Shown here: piece by piece, positions 46,807-60,092 of the stretch
Layout of the letters: each line of letters starts with the position of its first letter
How positions within the stretch are numbered: the first letter of the stretch is position 1
NCBI GenBank assembly: GCA_021850545.1
Contig: JAJZLU010000035.1
Location: forward strand, 1 to 64,000
Length of the DNA stretch: 64,000 bases
Source of the DNA: Thermoplasmata archaeon
GTDB lineage: Archaea > Thermoplasmatota > Thermoplasmata > Thermoplasmatales > Thermoplasmataceae
Direction of reading: 5' to 3'
Program-made: the position numbers and the translations under genes
Notes under the pieces: generated by a model
Database searches by the model: none
The model's input: only the letters and a program-made list of their open reading frames with translations
Told to the model about the DNA's origin: nothing

Positions 46807-48093
46807 GGTTCATCGGACTTTGGTGTGGGTAATTTTAGTCATCAATTAGCTATATTTTTTTATGGACGAGATCCAGATCTATTCAAAGCTCCTCGAGTGG
46901 AAGGTCGTGAATGTCTCTATCGATTCAGAGAAGAAGGTTGTTGAAGTCTTCATTGACCACGACAGGGGATCAAAGCTTCCCTGTCCAGAGTGCAGGACAG
47001 ATTGCATGGTCTATGATCACCTGAAGGAGCGTGTCTGGAGGGATCTCCATAGCATAGGATTCAAGACATTCATTCATGCAATGCCCCCAGGATAGAATGC
47101 CCTGAACATGGCATAAGGGAGGCTCTCATGCCATTCTCGGAGAAGAGATCAAGGTTCACTCTCAGATTTGAAACAAAATCCATCAGGATTTTGCAGAACA
47201 TGGATCTGTACAATTTCACCTGCACCATGGACATCTCGTGTAAGCAGGCGTGGAACATCATTGCTCATGCAGTGGAGAGGGGACTGTCAAGGAAAAGATC
47301 GCATCCCAGGGTAATATGCATAGATGACAAATCCTACAAGAAGGGTCGCAAGTACATCACCACAGTCATTGATTGTGAGACAAAGGGTGTTGACTATGTG
47401 TCATTCGAAAGGAAGAAGAAGTCCCTGTACCAGTATTAAGAAAGCATCTCGGAGGAGGATAGGTCCAACATAATTGCCGTTTCAATGGACATGTGGGATC
47501 CGTACATCAGCTCGACCCTGGAGCATGTCCCGGGTGCTCATGGAAAGATCGTCTTCGACCGCTTTCATGTCATGAAACATGTGAATGAGGCAGTTGATTC
47601 CGTGAGGAAGGAGGAGAATCGTGAGCTGGCGAAGAAAAGCATAATGGATCTCAAGGGTACGCGGTATCTCTGGCTATATTCAGGCGACAATCTGCCTGAA
47701 AGGTACAGGCAGAGGTACGGAGATCTGAAGGCATCAGATCTCAGGACAGGCAGGGCACATTCAATGAAGGAGAACATCAGGAGCCTCTGGAATCACCAAT
47801 CCATGGGTGAGGCAAAGGAGTACTGGAAAAACTGGCTCTCATGGGTCGCGCACTCATCCATCGATGCCATGAAGATTGTGGCAAAGATGATGAGGATGCA
47901 TATTGACAAGATACTGAACTATTTCACCCACAGAATCACCAATGCAAAGGCGGAAGGGATCAATTCCAAGATTTCTCTGATAGAAAAGATGGCGTATGGA
48001 TTCAGGAACAGAAGCTATCTGAGGACAGCGATATACTTCAAATGCGGAAATCTGGAACTTTATCCATGAACCCACACAAAAGTGTGAAGGACC
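46807..48093 (+). mobile_element. ISL3-family insertion sequence with 24-nt imperfect TIRs and 8-bp TSD
   Basis: IRL ggttcatcggactttggtgtgggt (46807-46830) vs reverse complement of IRR ggtccttcacacttttgtgtgggt (48070-48093), 19/24 identical; flanking 8-bp direct repeats ataaaaca at 46799-46806 and 48094-48101. Confidence 0.92.
46862..48069 (+). pseudogene. ISL3-family DDE transposase, disrupted by one frameshift and one in-frame stop
   Basis: Segments 46862-47095 (zinc-finger N-terminus LPCPECRTDCMVYDHLKERVWRDLHSIGFKTF), 47128-47439 and 47485-48069. Frameshift at C-run 47084-47088; TAA at 47437-47439 between SLYQY and ESISEEDRSN. IDDKSYKKG, SMDMWDPY, AKAEGINSK retained. Confidence 0.92.
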
Positions 48094-53218: not shown

Positions 53219-53413
53219 TTAGTGTTTCTTTGTAGACCATGGGACTGCAAGTGACAGAAAATAGACGATGAATCCCACGGCTGCAAAGGCAACAAGTTCA
53301 TTCAGTGGGGCATTCATGAAATGGTAGAGAAGCCCACCAATTTCAATTATGAACAGACCCAGAAAGAAAAGCGGATATCTTACACTACTTAGATTTCTTG
53401 CCATTTTAAACAC
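53219..53413 (-). CDS. Small two-TM membrane protein in Sdh1-like operon
   Basis: 64 aa, hydrophobic, 1 nt downstream of the membrane subunit gene. Confidence 0.65.
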   Translation of the reverse strand: MFKMARNLSSVRYPLFFLGLFIIEIGGLLYHFMNAPLNELVAFAAVGFIVYFLSLAVPWSTKKH

Positions 53414-53414
53414 C

Positions 53415-54146
53415 TCAGTGCAGAAGCACTATGTTCGGTATCACTCCGGCCACTGTGGCCCTTATGAACAGGTCCACCAGGAAGAACATTGTAAGGCTGA
53501 GCCAAGCAAATGTCTCGTGATGGGCATTGATTTTTGTCTGCCCGCTGAAGAGTCTCTTCCTTGTGTTGTGCTGGCAACTGAAACAGTCCACATTGCCCCC
53601 GACTAGGTGCCTGATGGCATGGCAGGAGAATGTGTAAATTGTAACAAATGCGGTGTTAACTATGAGCAGGATTCCGCCAAGCGTAAGTGTGAATCCGGGC
53701 TGGTACGTCATTGAGAGATACAGGTCGTAGTAGAAGAATGGGAGTATTGCAACTGCAAAGTACATGAAGTATCTGTGGAGGTTTTCCAGCCTGAAGAATC
53801 TCGTTTCACCAGTGTATTCCCTTCCCTTGAACTCTCCCCTGAACCCTATTTCACAATTTCTCGGGTGGTTGAAGACGTGCCTGTGGTAATCTTTCCTGTA
53901 AGCATAGCAGGTCAACCTGAACAGGCCAACGAATGGCAATACAGCCACTGTTGGCGAATAGAATGGGTCTGTAAGGCCGGTGCTCTTGCTGTAATAGACA
54001 GGGTATGTTACCATGAGGAATATTCCTACTACAAGGAGGAGGATAAAAGACCACAGCCTCCAATTTGGTTCAAGGAATTCCTTAGGGATAAGCCTAGTCA
54101 TCGATCTGTTGGATTTCTGCCTTGCCTGATTCTGGTTCCCTATCAT
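53415..54146 (-). CDS. Membrane subunit of Sdh1-like succinate dehydrogenase; candidate membrane-embedded Rieske-type FeS protein
   Basis: Polytopic; Cys/His cluster FSCHAIRHLVGGNVDCFSCQHNTRKRLFSGQTKINAHHETF; downstream of and adjacent to sdhB-like gene. Confidence 0.72.
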   Translation of the reverse strand: MIGNQNQARQKSNRSMTRLIPKEFLEPNWRLWSFILLLVVGIFLMVTYPVYYSKSTGLTDPFYSPTVAVLPFVGLFRLTCYAYRKDYHRHVFNHPRNCEIGFRGEFKGREYTGETRFFRLENLHRYFMYFAVAILPFFYYDLYLSMTYQPGFTLTLGGILLIVNTAFVTIYTFSCHAIRHLVGGNVDCFSCQHNTRKRLFSGQTKINAHHETFAWLSLTMFFLVDLFIRATVAGVIPNIVLLH

Positions 54147-54147
54147 T

Positions 54148-54900
54148 TCAGACCACCCTTGTTTCCTTAGTTCTCTTTCTCTTTATCAGCCTTGCAATTG
54201 GATCATATGTCATATCAACTGCCCTCTCCTTTTCCTGTATGATTGCATTGTCTGTGATGTGTATGTGCTCTGGGCAGACATCCTGGCAGCATTTTGTGAT
54301 ATTGCAGAAGCCAAGCCCGCCAACCTTGTTCAGGAAAGTGGACCGGTCCACAGAGTCTATGGGGTGCATATCAAGCGAAGCGGCTTTCACGATGTGTGCT
54401 GGCCCGAAATAGGGGGTTGAATGTTCCCTGACCACATGGCAGACATCCTGGCACAGGAAGCACTGTATGCACTTCTTGAACTCCTTCGATCTCTCTATGT
54501 CTTCCTGGTGCATTTTCCAGGGGAATTCAAGATCCTCCCTTGGAGTGAATTTGGGGATCTGCCTCAGGATATCCCAGTTTTCAGTTACATCAGTTACGAG
54601 GTCCCTGATAAGGGGATATGCCCCCATTGGAGACACAGTTATGTTGTGCCCAACTTTGTCGACTCTCGTTTTGCACATCAGCTTTGGCATCCCGTTTATC
54701 TCAGCTGCACACGAACCGCACTTGGCAGCCTTGCAGTTCCATCTGATTGCCAGCGTCGTGTCGAGCTTCTCCTGCACGTACCTGACTGCATCCAGGACTA
54801 CCATTCCATCGACCAGCGGAACTTCAAATTTCTGGTAATGCCCCTTTTCCTCAACGGATGGGTCCTGCCTGTAAATATTCAAGGTTATCTTTTCATCCAT
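54148..54900 (-). CDS. Succinate dehydrogenase/fumarate reductase iron-sulfur subunit, Sdh1-like
   Basis: WNCKAAKCGSCAAEINGMPKLMCKT, CIQCFLCQDVCH, CNITKCCQDVCPEHI. Confidence 0.92.
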   Translation of the reverse strand: MDEKITLNIYRQDPSVEEKGHYQKFEVPLVDGMVVLDAVRYVQEKLDTTLAIRWNCKAAKCGSCAAEINGMPKLMCKTRVDKVGHNITVSPMGAYPLIRDLVTDVTENWDILRQIPKFTPREDLEFPWKMHQEDIERSKEFKKCIQCFLCQDVCHVVREHSTPYFGPAHIVKAASLDMHPIDSVDRSTFLNKVGGLGFCNITKCCQDVCPEHIHITDNAIIQEKERAVDMTYDPIARLIKRKRTKETRVV

Positions 54901-56627
54901 CAGTATACCTCCGGTTTCACATACGGCTTAAACTCTTCTGGAAGCTCTGGAACCGGCAATGTGTCAAACTTCATTTCCCCGTTGTTGTCGGTGCATGTTA
55001 TGTTCTTGAGCCATTCCTTGTTCTTCTTGGGGAAATCCTTTCTAGTGTGTGCGCCCCTGCTCTCTGGCCTCATAATTGCAGATTTCACAATTGCTTCTGT
55101 GGCAACCAGCATGTTTCCTAATTCAAGCGCCGCAAGAAGGCCATGGTTGTACCTCTTTCCTCCTGGTGCAGCAACCGAAGGGTACCTTTCCTTAAGTTTC
55201 TGGATTATTTCCAGGGCCAATTCAAGGTGTTCTGCATCCCTGACGATGCCCACATTATCTGACATCGCCGTCGTGAGTTCGTCGATCAGGTCATAGGCAT
55301 TTGTGCCTTCTGGCCTGAGAAAGCCCAGAACCCTTTCTATTTCCCGGTTGACATCAGAATCATCCACTTCAACCAACTCAACTTTCTTGACGAACTCAGA
55401 AGCCCCTTCGCCCACTTTCTTTCCAAAAACCATTATGTCGCTCATTGAGTTCCCTCCAAGCCTGTTTGCTCCGTGCAATCCGCAGGCAACTTCGCCTGCT
55501 GCAAAGAGGCCCTCAACGGTAGAAGCACCTGTGTCAGGTTCTACCCGTATGCCGCCCATCTGGTAATGCACGGTTGGGGCAACTTCCATCATTTCCTTTG
55601 TTATGTCGACACCAGCAAACTCCATGAACTGCATATACATGCTTGGAAGCTTCTGCTTGACGAACTCGGCGCCCTTGTAAGAAATGTCAAGGTACACCCC
55701 GCCATGTTCAGTGCCTCTACCGGCCTGGATTTCAGCGTAATTTGCCCTTGCCACGACGTCTCTTGCATCAAGTTCCTTCTTCTGCGGGGAGTATCTCAGC
55801 ATATACCTTTCCTTATCCTTGTTGTAAAGGATGCCCCCCTCGCCTCTGACCCCTTCTGTTACCAGAAGTCCCCTGACTCCCGGGGGATAAACCATTCCTG
55901 TTGGATGGAACTGGATCATCTCCATGTCCTGAAGGGTTGCTCCTGCCCTGAACGCCAAACCGAGGCCATCGCCTGTGGACTCCCAGGAGTTTGAAGTGAT
56001 CTTGAATACCCTGCCGCAACCACCAGTTGCAAGTATTACGGCTTTGGCCCTGAAGAGGTGGAATTCTCCCTTGTCCATTTTCAGTCCCACAGCACCAATC
56101 ACGCGGCTATTGTTCTTGAGAAGGTTGGTTATGTACATTTCATCAAAAATTGTGACATTTTCCCTGTGAATAATCTGGTCCTGAAGTGTCCTGATGATTT
56201 CCAGGCCAGTTCTGTCTCCCACATGGCAAAGTCTCCTGTAGGAGTGTCCTCCAAACGCCCTCTGAAGGATCCTTCCATCGGGGGTCCGGTCAAAGAGCGC
56301 CCCGAACTTCTCCAGTTCATGCACTCTCTGGGGGGCTTCCTTGGCCAGGATTTCAGCCATTCTCCAGTTACCAATGTATACTCCTTCTTCTACGATATCA
56401 CCGAAATGTACCTGCCAGTTATCTTGGGGGTCCACGTTGCCCAGGGCGGCTGCCATTCCTCCTTCGGCCATCACAGTATGGGCTTTGCCCAGCAATGACT
56501 TTGAAACAACAGTTACCCTGAGGCCAGCGTCAGAAGCAGCAAGAGCTGCCCTCATGCCGGCCCCGCCTGCTCCGATGATAAGAACATCCGATTCAGTTTT
56601 TATATATTGCTCAGCCATGAGAATCAC
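54900..56627 (-). CDS. Succinate dehydrogenase/fumarate reductase flavoprotein subunit, Sdh1-like
   Basis: VLIIGAGGAGMRAALAASDAG, KAHTVMAEGGMAA (flavinylation His), QFHPTGMVYPPGVRGLLVTEGVRGEGG. Confidence 0.94.
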   Translation of the reverse strand: MILMAEQYIKTESDVLIIGAGGAGMRAALAASDAGLRVTVVSKSLLGKAHTVMAEGGMAAALGNVDPQDNWQVHFGDIVEEGVYIGNWRMAEILAKEAPQRVHELEKFGALFDRTPDGRILQRAFGGHSYRRLCHVGDRTGLEIIRTLQDQIIHRENVTIFDEMYITNLLKNNSRVIGAVGLKMDKGEFHLFRAKAVILATGGCGRVFKITSNSWESTGDGLGLAFRAGATLQDMEMIQFHPTGMVYPPGVRGLLVTEGVRGEGGILYNKDKERYMLRYSPQKKELDARDVVARANYAEIQAGRGTEHGGVYLDISYKGAEFVKQKLPSMYMQFMEFAGVDITKEMMEVAPTVHYQMGGIRVEPDTGASTVEGLFAAGEVACGLHGANRLGGNSMSDIMVFGKKVGEGASEFVKKVELVEVDDSDVNREIERVLGFLRPEGTNAYDLIDELTTAMSDNVGIVRDAEHLELALEIIQKLKERYPSVAAPGGKRYNHGLLAALELGNMLVATEAIVKSAIMRPESRGAHTRKDFPKKNKEWLKNITCTDNNGEMKFDTLPVPELPEEFKPYVKPEVY

Positions 56628-56816: not shown

Positions 56817-57248
56817 TCATGGGATGGCCATTTGTGCCACCACCAGAGAGAGGATTGTCCCATATATAACAGAGACGACAAATACTGCGAAGATAGCCCA
56901 TGAAACAAATTTTCTTGCCTTTGCAGAGATGCCAGTCTCGTATATTATCCCTTTAAGCCCATTTAATCCATGGTATGTCACAACCCACAGAAAGATCAGG
57001 AAGAATGCGAGCCACCATGGATCTCTCAGATTTCCAACCACCGTATCAAACAGTTCAATTGGGCTTCCTCCGTTTATATGTGCCACGTAGAGATGTACAC
57101 CGAGAAAGAATATTATGAAAGCACCACTGGCCGCCTGGAACAGCCACTGTATTGATCCAATGGGCCTCGTCCTTTTCTTTTCCGCCTCTTTATCAAGCGC
57201 TTCAAGGTTTGCCATTAAACACCGCCTCCTGACAACAGAACCTGCCAA
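56817..57248 (-). CDS. sdhD: Succinate dehydrogenase membrane anchor subunit (SdhD-like)
   Basis: TM protein with ...VTYHGLNGLKGIIYETG...; overlaps next membrane anchor gene. Confidence 0.8.
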   Translation of the reverse strand: MAGSVVRRRCLMANLEALDKEAEKKRTRPIGSIQWLFQAASGAFIIFFLGVHLYVAHINGGSPIELFDTVVGNLRDPWWLAFFLIFLWVVTYHGLNGLKGIIYETGISAKARKFVSWAIFAVFVVSVIYGTILSLVVAQMAIP

Positions 57249-57643
57249 GCATAGTAGAGAAACAGAAGCATCAGGATCATTGCACCTGACTCAAGGATGA
57301 AAAACATGAGTTTGTGGTGTTTGAGGCCATACCCTGCCTCATTGAGCATCAGCCTAACGCCATTCGCCCCATGGTAAAAGATGACCAGTGAGAGAAGTAT
57401 GTCCATGACAATGAAGATGTCATACGGACCATATGTGAATGAGGTGATCAGGTCGTTGAACGCGACACCGCCCCTAAGAAGGTTGGAAAGCACAAAGAAA
57501 TGGAGGTATAGGTACAGCAGGATTACAATTCCAGAAATCCTGTGCATTGTGTAAGCGAAATACCCAATGCCCTTGTGGAAGAAATTCAGCCAGCCGAGTG
57601 TTCCGTTATCGCTTTCCAGCATGCTTTCCCCTCCTGAAGGCAT
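57215..57643 (-). CDS. sdhC: Succinate dehydrogenase cytochrome b556-like subunit (SdhC-like)
   Basis: FAYTMHRISGIVILLYLYLHFFVLSNL, IFYHGANGVRLMLNEAGY. Confidence 0.85.
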   Translation of the reverse strand: MPSGGESMLESDNGTLGWLNFFHKGIGYFAYTMHRISGIVILLYLYLHFFVLSNLLRGGVAFNDLITSFTYGPYDIFIVMDILLSLVIFYHGANGVRLMLNEAGYGLKHHKLMFFILESGAMILMLLFLYYAWQVLLSGGGV

Positions 57644-58352
57644 TCTTCAGTTCGTGGGATATTCCTGTTCTTCTGAGTAACTGTATAGCCCGTGAAGGAT
57701 CCACATCCTTGGGACATACTTCAGTGCATTCCCCGGCATAATGGCATCTTGATGTGCCACTTTCCCCGCCCGTTATTTCAAGGCGTATTGGAGTTCCCTC
57801 GTCCCTACTGTCAAGGTTGAATCTCAGGGCTGCGGCCAGAGCTGCCGGACCAAGGTAATCATCATCAGAGCCCGATATAGGGCAGGCCGCAAGGCAAAGC
57901 CCACACTTTATGCACATGGAATATTGTTCATAGATCTTGAACTGTTCTGGAGTCTGCAAAAGCTCTACCCCAGGTGATTTATCATCTTTCCTGATGATGT
58001 ATGGCTTCACCTTCCTGTATTTCTCGAAGAAAGGATCAATGTCGACAACAAGGTCCTTGATCACTTGATAATGAGGCAATGGTGACACCCGTATAGTGTT
58101 CGAGCCCAGTGATTCGGCAATGGTTGAGCATGCCATCCTTGGCTTCCCGTTTATCTGCATTGAACAGCTTCCGCATATTTCCATCCTGCAGGAATGGCGA
58201 AAAGAAAGCGTACCGTCGAGGTTCTCGCTTATGTATACAAGGCCTTCCAGCACAGTAGAAATTTTTTTCTTTGGAACGTTGAACCTGTCAAATCGTGAAT
58301 TGCCCTTTTCATCTCCCCTTTTTACCAAAAATACATAATTTTCAGAATCCAT
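57606..58352 (-). CDS. sdhB: Succinate dehydrogenase iron-sulfur subunit
   Basis: SFRHSCRMEICGSCSMQINGKPRMACST, CIKCGLCLAACP, CHYAGECTEVCPKDVDP. Confidence 0.94.
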   Translation of the reverse strand: MDSENYVFLVKRGDEKGNSRFDRFNVPKKKISTVLEGLVYISENLDGTLSFRHSCRMEICGSCSMQINGKPRMACSTIAESLGSNTIRVSPLPHYQVIKDLVVDIDPFFEKYRKVKPYIIRKDDKSPGVELLQTPEQFKIYEQYSMCIKCGLCLAACPISGSDDDYLGPAALAAALRFNLDSRDEGTPIRLEITGGESGTSRCHYAGECTEVCPKDVDPSRAIQLLRRTGISHELKNAFRRGKHAGKR

Positions 58353-58361
58353 AGAATCACT

Positions 58362-60092
58362 TCAGTAAACCCTTGGGGCAGGCTTCCATTTGGTGATTGC
58401 TACGTCGGTGTAATGAAATGCCGGCCCGTCCTTTGTAAAGTTAACAACGGTATGTTTCAGGAAATTCACATCATCTCTCTTTGGATAGTCGTTCCTGTAG
58501 TGTGCCCCCCTGCTTTCCCTCCTCATTAAAGCACCCAGTGTAATAATTTCTGCAAGGTCAAGCATGAATCCGAGTTCGAGTGTTTCCTGCAGTTGAAGGT
58601 TGAAAACTCTGGACTTGTCCTCCACAGAAATATTTGAGAATCTCCCCTTCAGTGAGATGATGTTTTTGGCCTGTTTTTCAAGCTCACTCTCAGTGCGCAA
58701 CACACCTACATTCTGGTCCATTCCGGTCCTGAGATCCTCCCTGATCCTGGCAACGTTTTCTCCTCCCCCGTTTTTCAGGATTCCTTCCCAGATCCGTTTT
58801 TCCTCCATCATAACCCTTGTTGTATCGAGGTCAGGGATAGTGTGCGCTGAAGCCCATTCTGCTGCCTTGATGCCCACGACGTTTCCAAATGCAAGGCATT
58901 CGTTTGTAGAGTTTGAACCCAACCGGTTTGCCCCATGTATGCTTATGGCGACATTCTCTCCGGCCCCGAATATGCCTGGAACCTGTGTCTCAGTAGATAT
59001 CCTCACATCAATGCCGCCCATTGTGTAATGAGTGGCAGGCCTTACTGGGATTGGTTCCACAGCTGGATCGATATGATTGAATTTCTTGGCTATGTCAGTG
59101 ATCATGGGCAATCTTTCCTCCAGTTTTTCAGCAATGTGTGTGAGGTCAAGATGTATGTGGGGTGTCTCCCCATGTTCATCGATTATCCCCCGGCCGCCAA
59201 GTATTTCCCACATCATCGCCCGAGAAACGATGTCACGGGGAGCTTCCTCCAACTTTGTTGGAGCATACTTTTCCATGAACCGTTTGCCTTCAGAGTTCCT
59301 GAGATACCCCCCTTCAGCCCTGGCTGCCTCTGTAATAAGGATTCCGGACGGGACCAGGCCAGTGGGATGGAACTGCATGAATTCCATGTCCTTCAGTGAA
59401 AGGCCTGCCCTGTATGCAATCGCATTGCCGTCACCGGTAACTGAGCTCGCATATGTGCTGAACTGGTAAAGGCGGCCGGCCCCACCCGCTGCAAAGATGA
59501 GCGCCTTTCCCTGGAAAACAACAAACTCCCCTGTCTTGAGGTTGATGGCAGTAAGGCCGTTGAACCTGTTCTGGCCTATAATTGCGGAAGTTACAAAATA
59601 CTCATTGTAAAAGTGTATCCTGTCATACATCTGGCACCTGCTGAAAAGGGTCTGCATAACATGGAACCCTGTCTTGTCCGCTGCAAATGTAGCCCTTGGG
59701 AAGCTCAATCCACCAAAGTCCCTCTGTGAAATGGTTCCGTCAGAGTTCCTGGACCACGGGCACCCCCAGCGGTCAGTAGTATAAATCTGCTCTGGAACTA
59801 TCCGCACAAACTCCTCCACTGCATCCTGGTCGGCCAGATAGTCGCTTCCCTTTATGGTATCAAAAGCGTGGAGGTCAAGATTGTCCCTGGGATCAAGAAC
59901 TGCACTGGTTCCCCCTTCTGCGGACACGGAGTGGGACCTTAGAGGGTAAAGCTTAGATACAAGCCCAACTGAAATTGAATTGTCCTTCTCCGCTGCCGAA
60001 ATGGCTGCCCTTAGCCCAGCCATTCCTCCACCCATAATTATGATATCTTCCTTGATGGTTTCCAACATAAACCCTATATAAAAATGCCTCAA
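58362..60092 (-). CDS. sdhA: Succinate dehydrogenase flavoprotein subunit (start may be internal ATG, MLETIKEDIIIMGGG)
   Basis: IIMGGGMAGLRAAISAAE, RSHSVSAEGGTSAV, QFHPTGLVPSGILITEAARAEGG. Confidence 0.95.
   Translation of the reverse strand: MRHFYIGFMLETIKEDIIIMGGGMAGLRAAISAAEKDNSISVGLVSKLYPLRSHSVSAEGGTSAVLDPRDNLDLHAFDTIKGSDYLADQDAVEEFVRIVPEQIYTTDRWGCPWSRNSDGTISQRDFGGLSFPRATFAADKTGFHVMQTLFSRCQMYDRIHFYNEYFVTSAIIGQNRFNGLTAINLKTGEFVVFQGKALIFAAGGAGRLYQFSTYASSVTGDGNAIAYRAGLSLKDMEFMQFHPTGLVPSGILITEAARAEGGYLRNSEGKRFMEKYAPTKLEEAPRDIVSRAMMWEILGGRGIIDEHGETPHIHLDLTHIAEKLEERLPMITDIAKKFNHIDPAVEPIPVRPATHYTMGGIDVRISTETQVPGIFGAGENVAISIHGANRLGSNSTNECLAFGNVVGIKAAEWASAHTIPDLDTTRVMMEEKRIWEGILKNGGGENVARIREDLRTGMDQNVGVLRTESELEKQAKNIISLKGRFSNISVEDKSRVFNLQLQETLELGFMLDLAEIITLGALMRRESRGAHYRNDYPKRDDVNFLKHTVVNFTKDGPAFHYTDVAITKWKPAPRVY

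Follow-up and report, generated by a model that had tools for sequence, protein, structure and literature searches.

Class F complex II

The closest described system to the locus analyzed here is Sdh1 of Mycobacterium smegmatis (7D6V), which a review assigns to class F of complex II and describes as having a Rieske cluster integral to the membrane (PMC10238741). In this class, succinate is oxidized at FAD and the electrons pass through three SdhB clusters and the membrane Rieske cluster to quinone (7D6V, via PMC10238741). The class F membrane subunit has six helices (PMC10238741). A 2019 FEBS Letters paper deals with this class of complex II (as cited in PMC9426501), and the class F structures found come from one mycobacterium only (7D6V/7D6X). 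Complex II of A-, E- and G-plasma was described in a 2013 acid-mine genome paper as 'missing SdhD' and as having a low-confidence SdhC (PMC3750248).

Gene organization

The window (the whole stretch of DNA that was analyzed, 64,000 nucleotides from an acidophilic archaeon of the Thermoplasmatales) contains a tight four-gene unit that runs from 56627 to 53219 on the minus strand and encodes SdhA and SdhB, followed by a polytopic anchor of 243 aa and a small protein with two helices. The set probably specifies a class F (Sdh1-type), heme-free complex II with a membrane Rieske-type cluster, to which the anchor clade termed F2 (defined below) adds a small subunit and a possible second metal site. 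The four open reading frames that a preliminary description had placed here are all borne out, in strand as well as in position. The first gene, sdhA2 (54900..56627, minus strand), encodes a 575-aa flavoprotein with the domains FAD_binding_2 and Succ_DH_flav_C. Its stop overlaps sdhB2 (54148..54900, minus strand; iron-sulfur subunit, 250 aa) by one base, and a gap of one base separates sdhB2 from the anchor gene (53415..54146, minus strand). The gene for the small two-TM subunit (53219..53413, minus strand), assigned by its linkage to the anchor, encodes 64 aa from a GTG at 53413 or 61 aa from an ATG at 53404. Because the sequence GAGGTG lies across the anchor stop codon (TGA, 53415-53417), a few bases before this ATG, the small protein is probably the 61-aa form, made from the same message as the anchor. 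Elsewhere in the window, an ORF at 47485-48069 (plus strand) may represent an ISL3-type transposase fragment.

SdhA2 and SdhB2

Among all PDB chains, SdhA2 is most similar to 7d6v_A (599.6 bits; runner-up 402.8) and SdhB2 to 7d6v_B (271.7 bits; runner-up 99.9). SdhB2 passes the cut-off of the equivalog NF009052 (314 bits; cut-off 256), and the best NCBIfam match of SdhA2, NF005866, scores 770 bits, below its cut-off of 819. His50 of SdhA2 (the FAD-linking position), H241, H354 and H385 are invariant in 71 F2 sequences and kept in 33 or 34 of 34 other homologs. The SdhB2 cysteines assigned to the 2Fe-2S, 4Fe-4S and 3Fe-4S clusters (56, 61, 64, 76, 144, 147, 150, 154, 199, 205 and 209) are all invariant. 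The sequences support placing both subunits in the Sdh1 lineage; they had earlier been judged nearer to the Sdh1 class than to classical enzymes, and the wide margins by which 7d6v is the top PDB match agree with that judgment.

The membrane anchor

A phmmer search of the PDB with the anchor gave 7d6v_C as the sole match at E<=10 (E-value: 2.7e-32), and a profile of the anchor family matched 7d6v_C only (E-value: 1.4e-41). The Foldseek comparison with the mycobacterial Sdh1 membrane subunit that had been proposed as a check gave the same answer, with 7d6v_C as the sole significant match to the AlphaFold2 model of the anchor (E-value: 9e-9, prob 1.00). The TM-score between model and chain is only 0.62/0.58, with an rmsd of 7.0; the model has a mean pLDDT of 75, and its confidence is low for loop 88-115 and moderate for residues 181-200. 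Five long helices are predicted (29-47, 67-90, 123-147, 156-174/176-181 and 210-232), along with a shorter one at 194-207. Set against the six helices of class F, the anchor has five predicted long TM-type helices, and the small protein shows two hydrophobic stretches.

Pfam and NCBIfam searches assigned the anchor to no family. It does not match Sdh_cyt or Fumarate_red_C/D, the anchors of heme-b classes A-D, at E<=1, whereas the adjoining classical anchors of 142 and 143 aa do match PF01127; nor does it match the CCG domain that marks class E. Identification as a heme anchor or a CCG anchor was rejected on these grounds. The preliminary description had already held that the 243-aa protein is not an SdhC/SdhD heme-b anchor and had named a match to either family as reason to abandon its reading; such a match was looked for and is absent. 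The gene set thus has a single polytopic anchor homologous to 7d6v_C, as in class F, and the Sdh1-like architecture proposed for this archaeon is supported by sequence, and by fold, for the three core subunits.

Candidate Rieske ligands

Anchors were collected from 80 relatives found by genome scan, from 106 genomes with a match among the 296 of the window's phylum that were sampled, and from three bacterial records; these three, all from the plasmid collection, and the chain from M. smegmatis made up the bacterial sample. About 130 anchors and the Sdh1 chain were aligned, and nine more were then added. Seven residues, C80, C98, H124, C175, H176, H180 and H210, are common to nearly all of the ~135 homologs, including mycobacterial Sdh1, and so are candidate Rieske ligands supported by homology. 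They are kept in archaea, in actinobacteria, in a Gemmatimonadota record and in marine-type Thermoplasmatota. The archaeal anchor thus shares with Sdh1 seven conserved Cys/His residues that could coordinate a [2Fe-2S] cluster in the membrane. Fifty columns are invariant in 71 sequences with 49-88% identity to the window protein, among them C80, H88, H94, C98, H124, C175, H176, H180, C188, C191 and H210, so that by this measure the Cys/His cluster is far beyond chance.

C80 (53907..53909), H124 (53775..53777) and H210 (53517..53519), all on the minus strand, are kept throughout the alignment, as are C175 and H176 of the motif C175-H176-x3-H180 (53607..53624, minus strand), save for one row with unread bases at these last two positions. 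C98 (53853..53855, minus strand) is replaced by Val in one divergent homolog (L114). At H180, L114 and the related homologs L134 and L135 have Asn, in each case along with D141H. Both residues are weakened as essential ligands. Given these exceptions, the simplest and most likely choice of ligands on the alignment is C80 and C175 together with two from among H124, H176 and H210. The five residues lie toward one common end of helices 2-5 in the predicted secondary structure and would face SdhB if the N-terminus is inside. By analogy with 7D6V, the cluster that they bind would be a Rieske [2Fe-2S] cluster.

Two local variations were seen in the alignment. In the related Thermoplasmatota L114, L134 and L135, a C-x2-C motif occurs together with H180N and D141H (and, in L114, C98V), a combination that may represent a possible ligand exchange. 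The actinobacterial anchors L129 and L131 and 7d6v_C have an extra Cys two residues past H176 (SCHSCRH) that the archaeal homologs lack.

The preliminary description had drawn the Rieske-type centre differently, from a dense Cys/His cluster made up of C175-H176-x3-H180 and C188-x2-C191-x-H193. The first of these motifs is real and its three residues belong to the conserved set, but its spacing is not the C-H-x4-H originally given, and the conserved residues are actually spread over the protein. The second is absent from Sdh1, where the cluster was seen, and is an extra, mostly archaeal feature; in the proposed check of Cys/His invariance the core seven held in nearly all homologs, but H193, the last His of C-x2-C-x-H, varies even among close relatives within F2. 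C80, H124 and H210 are more broadly kept. A centre built from these two motifs is therefore highly improbable, even though the Cys/His residues are dense in this part of the sequence, and the family-wide residues are preferred.

Anchor clades and the small subunit

In a midpoint-rooted maximum likelihood tree (quick search), the 110 anchors included fall into two groups, F1 (39 rows) and F2 (71 rows), the latter on a long branch (SH-aLRT 100). F2 contains Thermoplasmatales, Micrarchaeota, some Nitrososphaerota and others; F1 contains the bacterial rows and more distant Thermoplasmatota, which, judged by the sizes of their families, are taken to be mainly marine lineages. The gene order is anchor-SdhA-SdhB in F1 and SdhA-SdhB-anchor-small in F2, with anchor-small beside SdhA-SdhB in Nitrososphaerota.

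When the 29,372 ORFs of all loci were searched with a profile of the small protein, there were 92 matches, each on the same strand as an anchor gene and directly after it. The small gene is present in every anchor-bearing F2 locus, and all 47 F1 loci lack it. This perfect linkage supports the earlier suggestion of a possibly new small subunit. Its product combines a pair of hydrophobic stretches with the conserved motif [RK]YP-x-F...G and conserved Gly positions, and has no relative in the PDB. Since the homolog alignment contains no conserved Cys or His, the small protein probably binds no cofactor on its own, and a structural role is inferred. Weak resemblances to exosortase and MscL-like proteins (E-values 0.01-0.2) were rejected, as they fall below the curated cut-offs and are contradicted by the linkage to the anchor.

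A candidate second metal site

Two further groups of residues distinguish the F2 anchors. C188-x2-C191 (53574..53585, minus strand) is invariant in F2 and is missing from mycobacterial Sdh1 and most F1 homologs. H88, H90 and H94 (53865..53885, minus strand) are predicted to lie where helix 2 ends on the cytoplasmic side; H94, like C188 and C191, is found in all F2 rows, and H88 and H90 in nearly all. From their conservation, C188, C191 and H94, with H90 or H88, may form a second metal site near the SdhB-anchor interface, one for Zn or, less likely, an Fe-S cluster. Nine F1 rows have C-x2-C without the F2 histidines, and gain and loss of the motif on the anchor tree amount to five changes; on the strength of these nine rows, the motif may predate F2 and have been lost in others.

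What such a site would do can be read in two ways. The enzyme may be the same class F complex with C188-x2-C191 and the F2 histidines serving purely as a structural zinc knuckle (or dithiol) that stabilizes the cytoplasmic loops and takes no part in electron transfer, a reading with an even chance of being correct. Cysteines spaced C-x2-C together with His are a common zinc arrangement. The mycobacterial, Gemmatimonadota and marine-type homologs keep the core seven and have no C-x2-C, so the core enzyme can do without the motif. However, the nine F1 homologs with C-x2-C and no F2 histidines imply that the two groups are not one obligatory site, and the absolute invariance within F2 would be equally expected of a redox site. 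The other reading is that F2 enzymes carry a second redox-active cluster, bound by C188, C191, H94 and a neighbour, between the 3Fe-4S cluster of SdhB and either the Rieske cluster or quinone, with a dedicated new subunit. This is quite unlikely; if true, the archaeal enzyme would have one electron-transfer step more than any described complex II.

Distribution and the neighbouring classical genes

Among 61 genomes of the window's family, an F2 anchor is present in 36 and an Sdh_cyt anchor in 23: 28 genomes have only F2, 15 only Sdh_cyt, eight both (G000, G248, G445, G233, G130, G183, G446 and G454) and ten neither, and not all of these absences are certain because some of the genomes are incomplete. 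As an Sdh_cyt anchor was not found in 28 of the 36 family genomes with F2, the F2 protein must be their membrane anchor, and the class F set is usually the sole source of a recognized complex II anchor in F2 genomes of this family. Five further F2 genomes, including the complete genome of Micrarchaeum A_DKE (about 1 Mb), likewise contain no Sdh_cyt anchor. In Micrarchaeota, the F2 anchor occurs in 17 of 117 genomes of the phylum, with carriers that include genomes of about 0.7-1.1 Mb. The four-gene class F complex II is kept in the Micrarchaeota/Mancarchaeum loci L014, L020, L021, L024, L025, L029, L032 and L034. Distribution is patchy in the phylum of the Nitrososphaerales locus L054, whose own genome is the only one of 121 sampled to have the F2 anchor.

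Immediately upstream of the class F set, the window also encodes a full classical enzyme, which the preliminary description does not mention: sdhA and sdhB together with a pair of Sdh_cyt anchors (56817-60092, minus strand). The same tandem occurs only in the near relatives L002 and L003 and is not found in L004-L007. In the I-plasma-like loci L010-L013, L015-L017, L019 and L033, a different classical-type set (A, Sdh_cyt-like, B) lies directly downstream of the small gene, and the pairing of class F and classical genes therefore seems to have arisen more than once. The two complete sets in tandem, and the pairing of class F with a different classical set on the other side in I-plasma-like loci, speak for a reading in which the class F complex would act in vivo as a quinol:fumarate reductase and the adjoining classical sdhABCD as the succinate dehydrogenase. 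This division of labour is unlikely, as 28 of the 36 F2 genomes of the family have no Sdh_cyt anchor and mycobacterial Sdh1 is itself a succinate dehydrogenase (PMC9426501, PMC13332983).

Proposed model

The proposed model for the class F enzyme acting as a succinate dehydrogenase is as follows. Electrons from succinate would enter at FAD in SdhA and pass through the three SdhB clusters to a Rieske-type [2Fe-2S] cluster held among the cytoplasmic ends of anchor helices 2-5. This cluster would reduce quinone without heme b; both the heme-free transfer and the quinone reaction are inferred for the archaeal enzyme. In F2, the small two-helix subunit would pack against the five-helix anchor, and the cytoplasmic C188-x2-C191 with H94 (and H90/H88) would provide the possible second metal site near the SdhB-anchor interface.

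In the genomes scanned, class F appears as a widespread archaeal respiratory enzyme and not a mycobacterial one alone. Such an enzyme may explain the 'missing SdhD' and low-confidence SdhC of A-, E- and G-plasma (PMC3750248), and both these gaps and the four-gene complex II of PMC5155288 are consistent with the F2 set. The analysis names a fourth complex II subunit and points to a second conserved Cys/His site that can be tested, and culturable acidophiles such as Cuniculiplasma offer a route to studying a Rieske centre inside the membrane. In the searchable literature no account was found of archaeal class F anchors, the small subunit or the extra Cys/His site, and subscription papers may mention archaeal homologs. 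The class itself is known; as far as checked, the four-subunit form seen in archaea, with its possible second metal site, is undescribed.

Comparison with known complex II systems

Class E enzymes resemble the archaeal set in having a non-heme, Cys-rich anchor, which in class E has Zn/Fe-S; however, the archaeal anchor has no CCG match and is polytopic, whereas the class E anchor is amphipathic. The class A diheme complex II of M. smegmatis, Sdh2 (6LUM), likewise includes an additional small membrane protein, SdhF. Its catalytic subunits are less similar than those of 7D6V (SdhA 402.8 against 599.6 bits, SdhB 92.3 against 271.7), its anchors are heme proteins, and SdhF is a different protein of ~3 kDa (PMC7447783), the archaeal small protein having no PDB match. 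In Cuniculiplasma divulgatum, four genes (CSP5_0486-0489) are given as complex II in the available passages of PMC5155288, which name succinate dehydrogenase only and no Rieske-type anchor; the Cuniculiplasma sp. locus L049 has the same A-B-C-small set as the window. The best match remains M. smegmatis Sdh1 (7D6V/7D6X), to which all three core subunits are related and which shares the core seven Cys/His residues and an anchor without a heme-anchor family match. The archaeal gene order is A-B-C-small, in contrast to the C-A-B order of the F1 relatives examined, including the actinobacterial ones. Relative to Sdh1, the archaeal anchor has five predicted helices and a shorter N-terminus, and the archaeal set adds the small subunit, C188-x2-C191 and H88/H90/H94.
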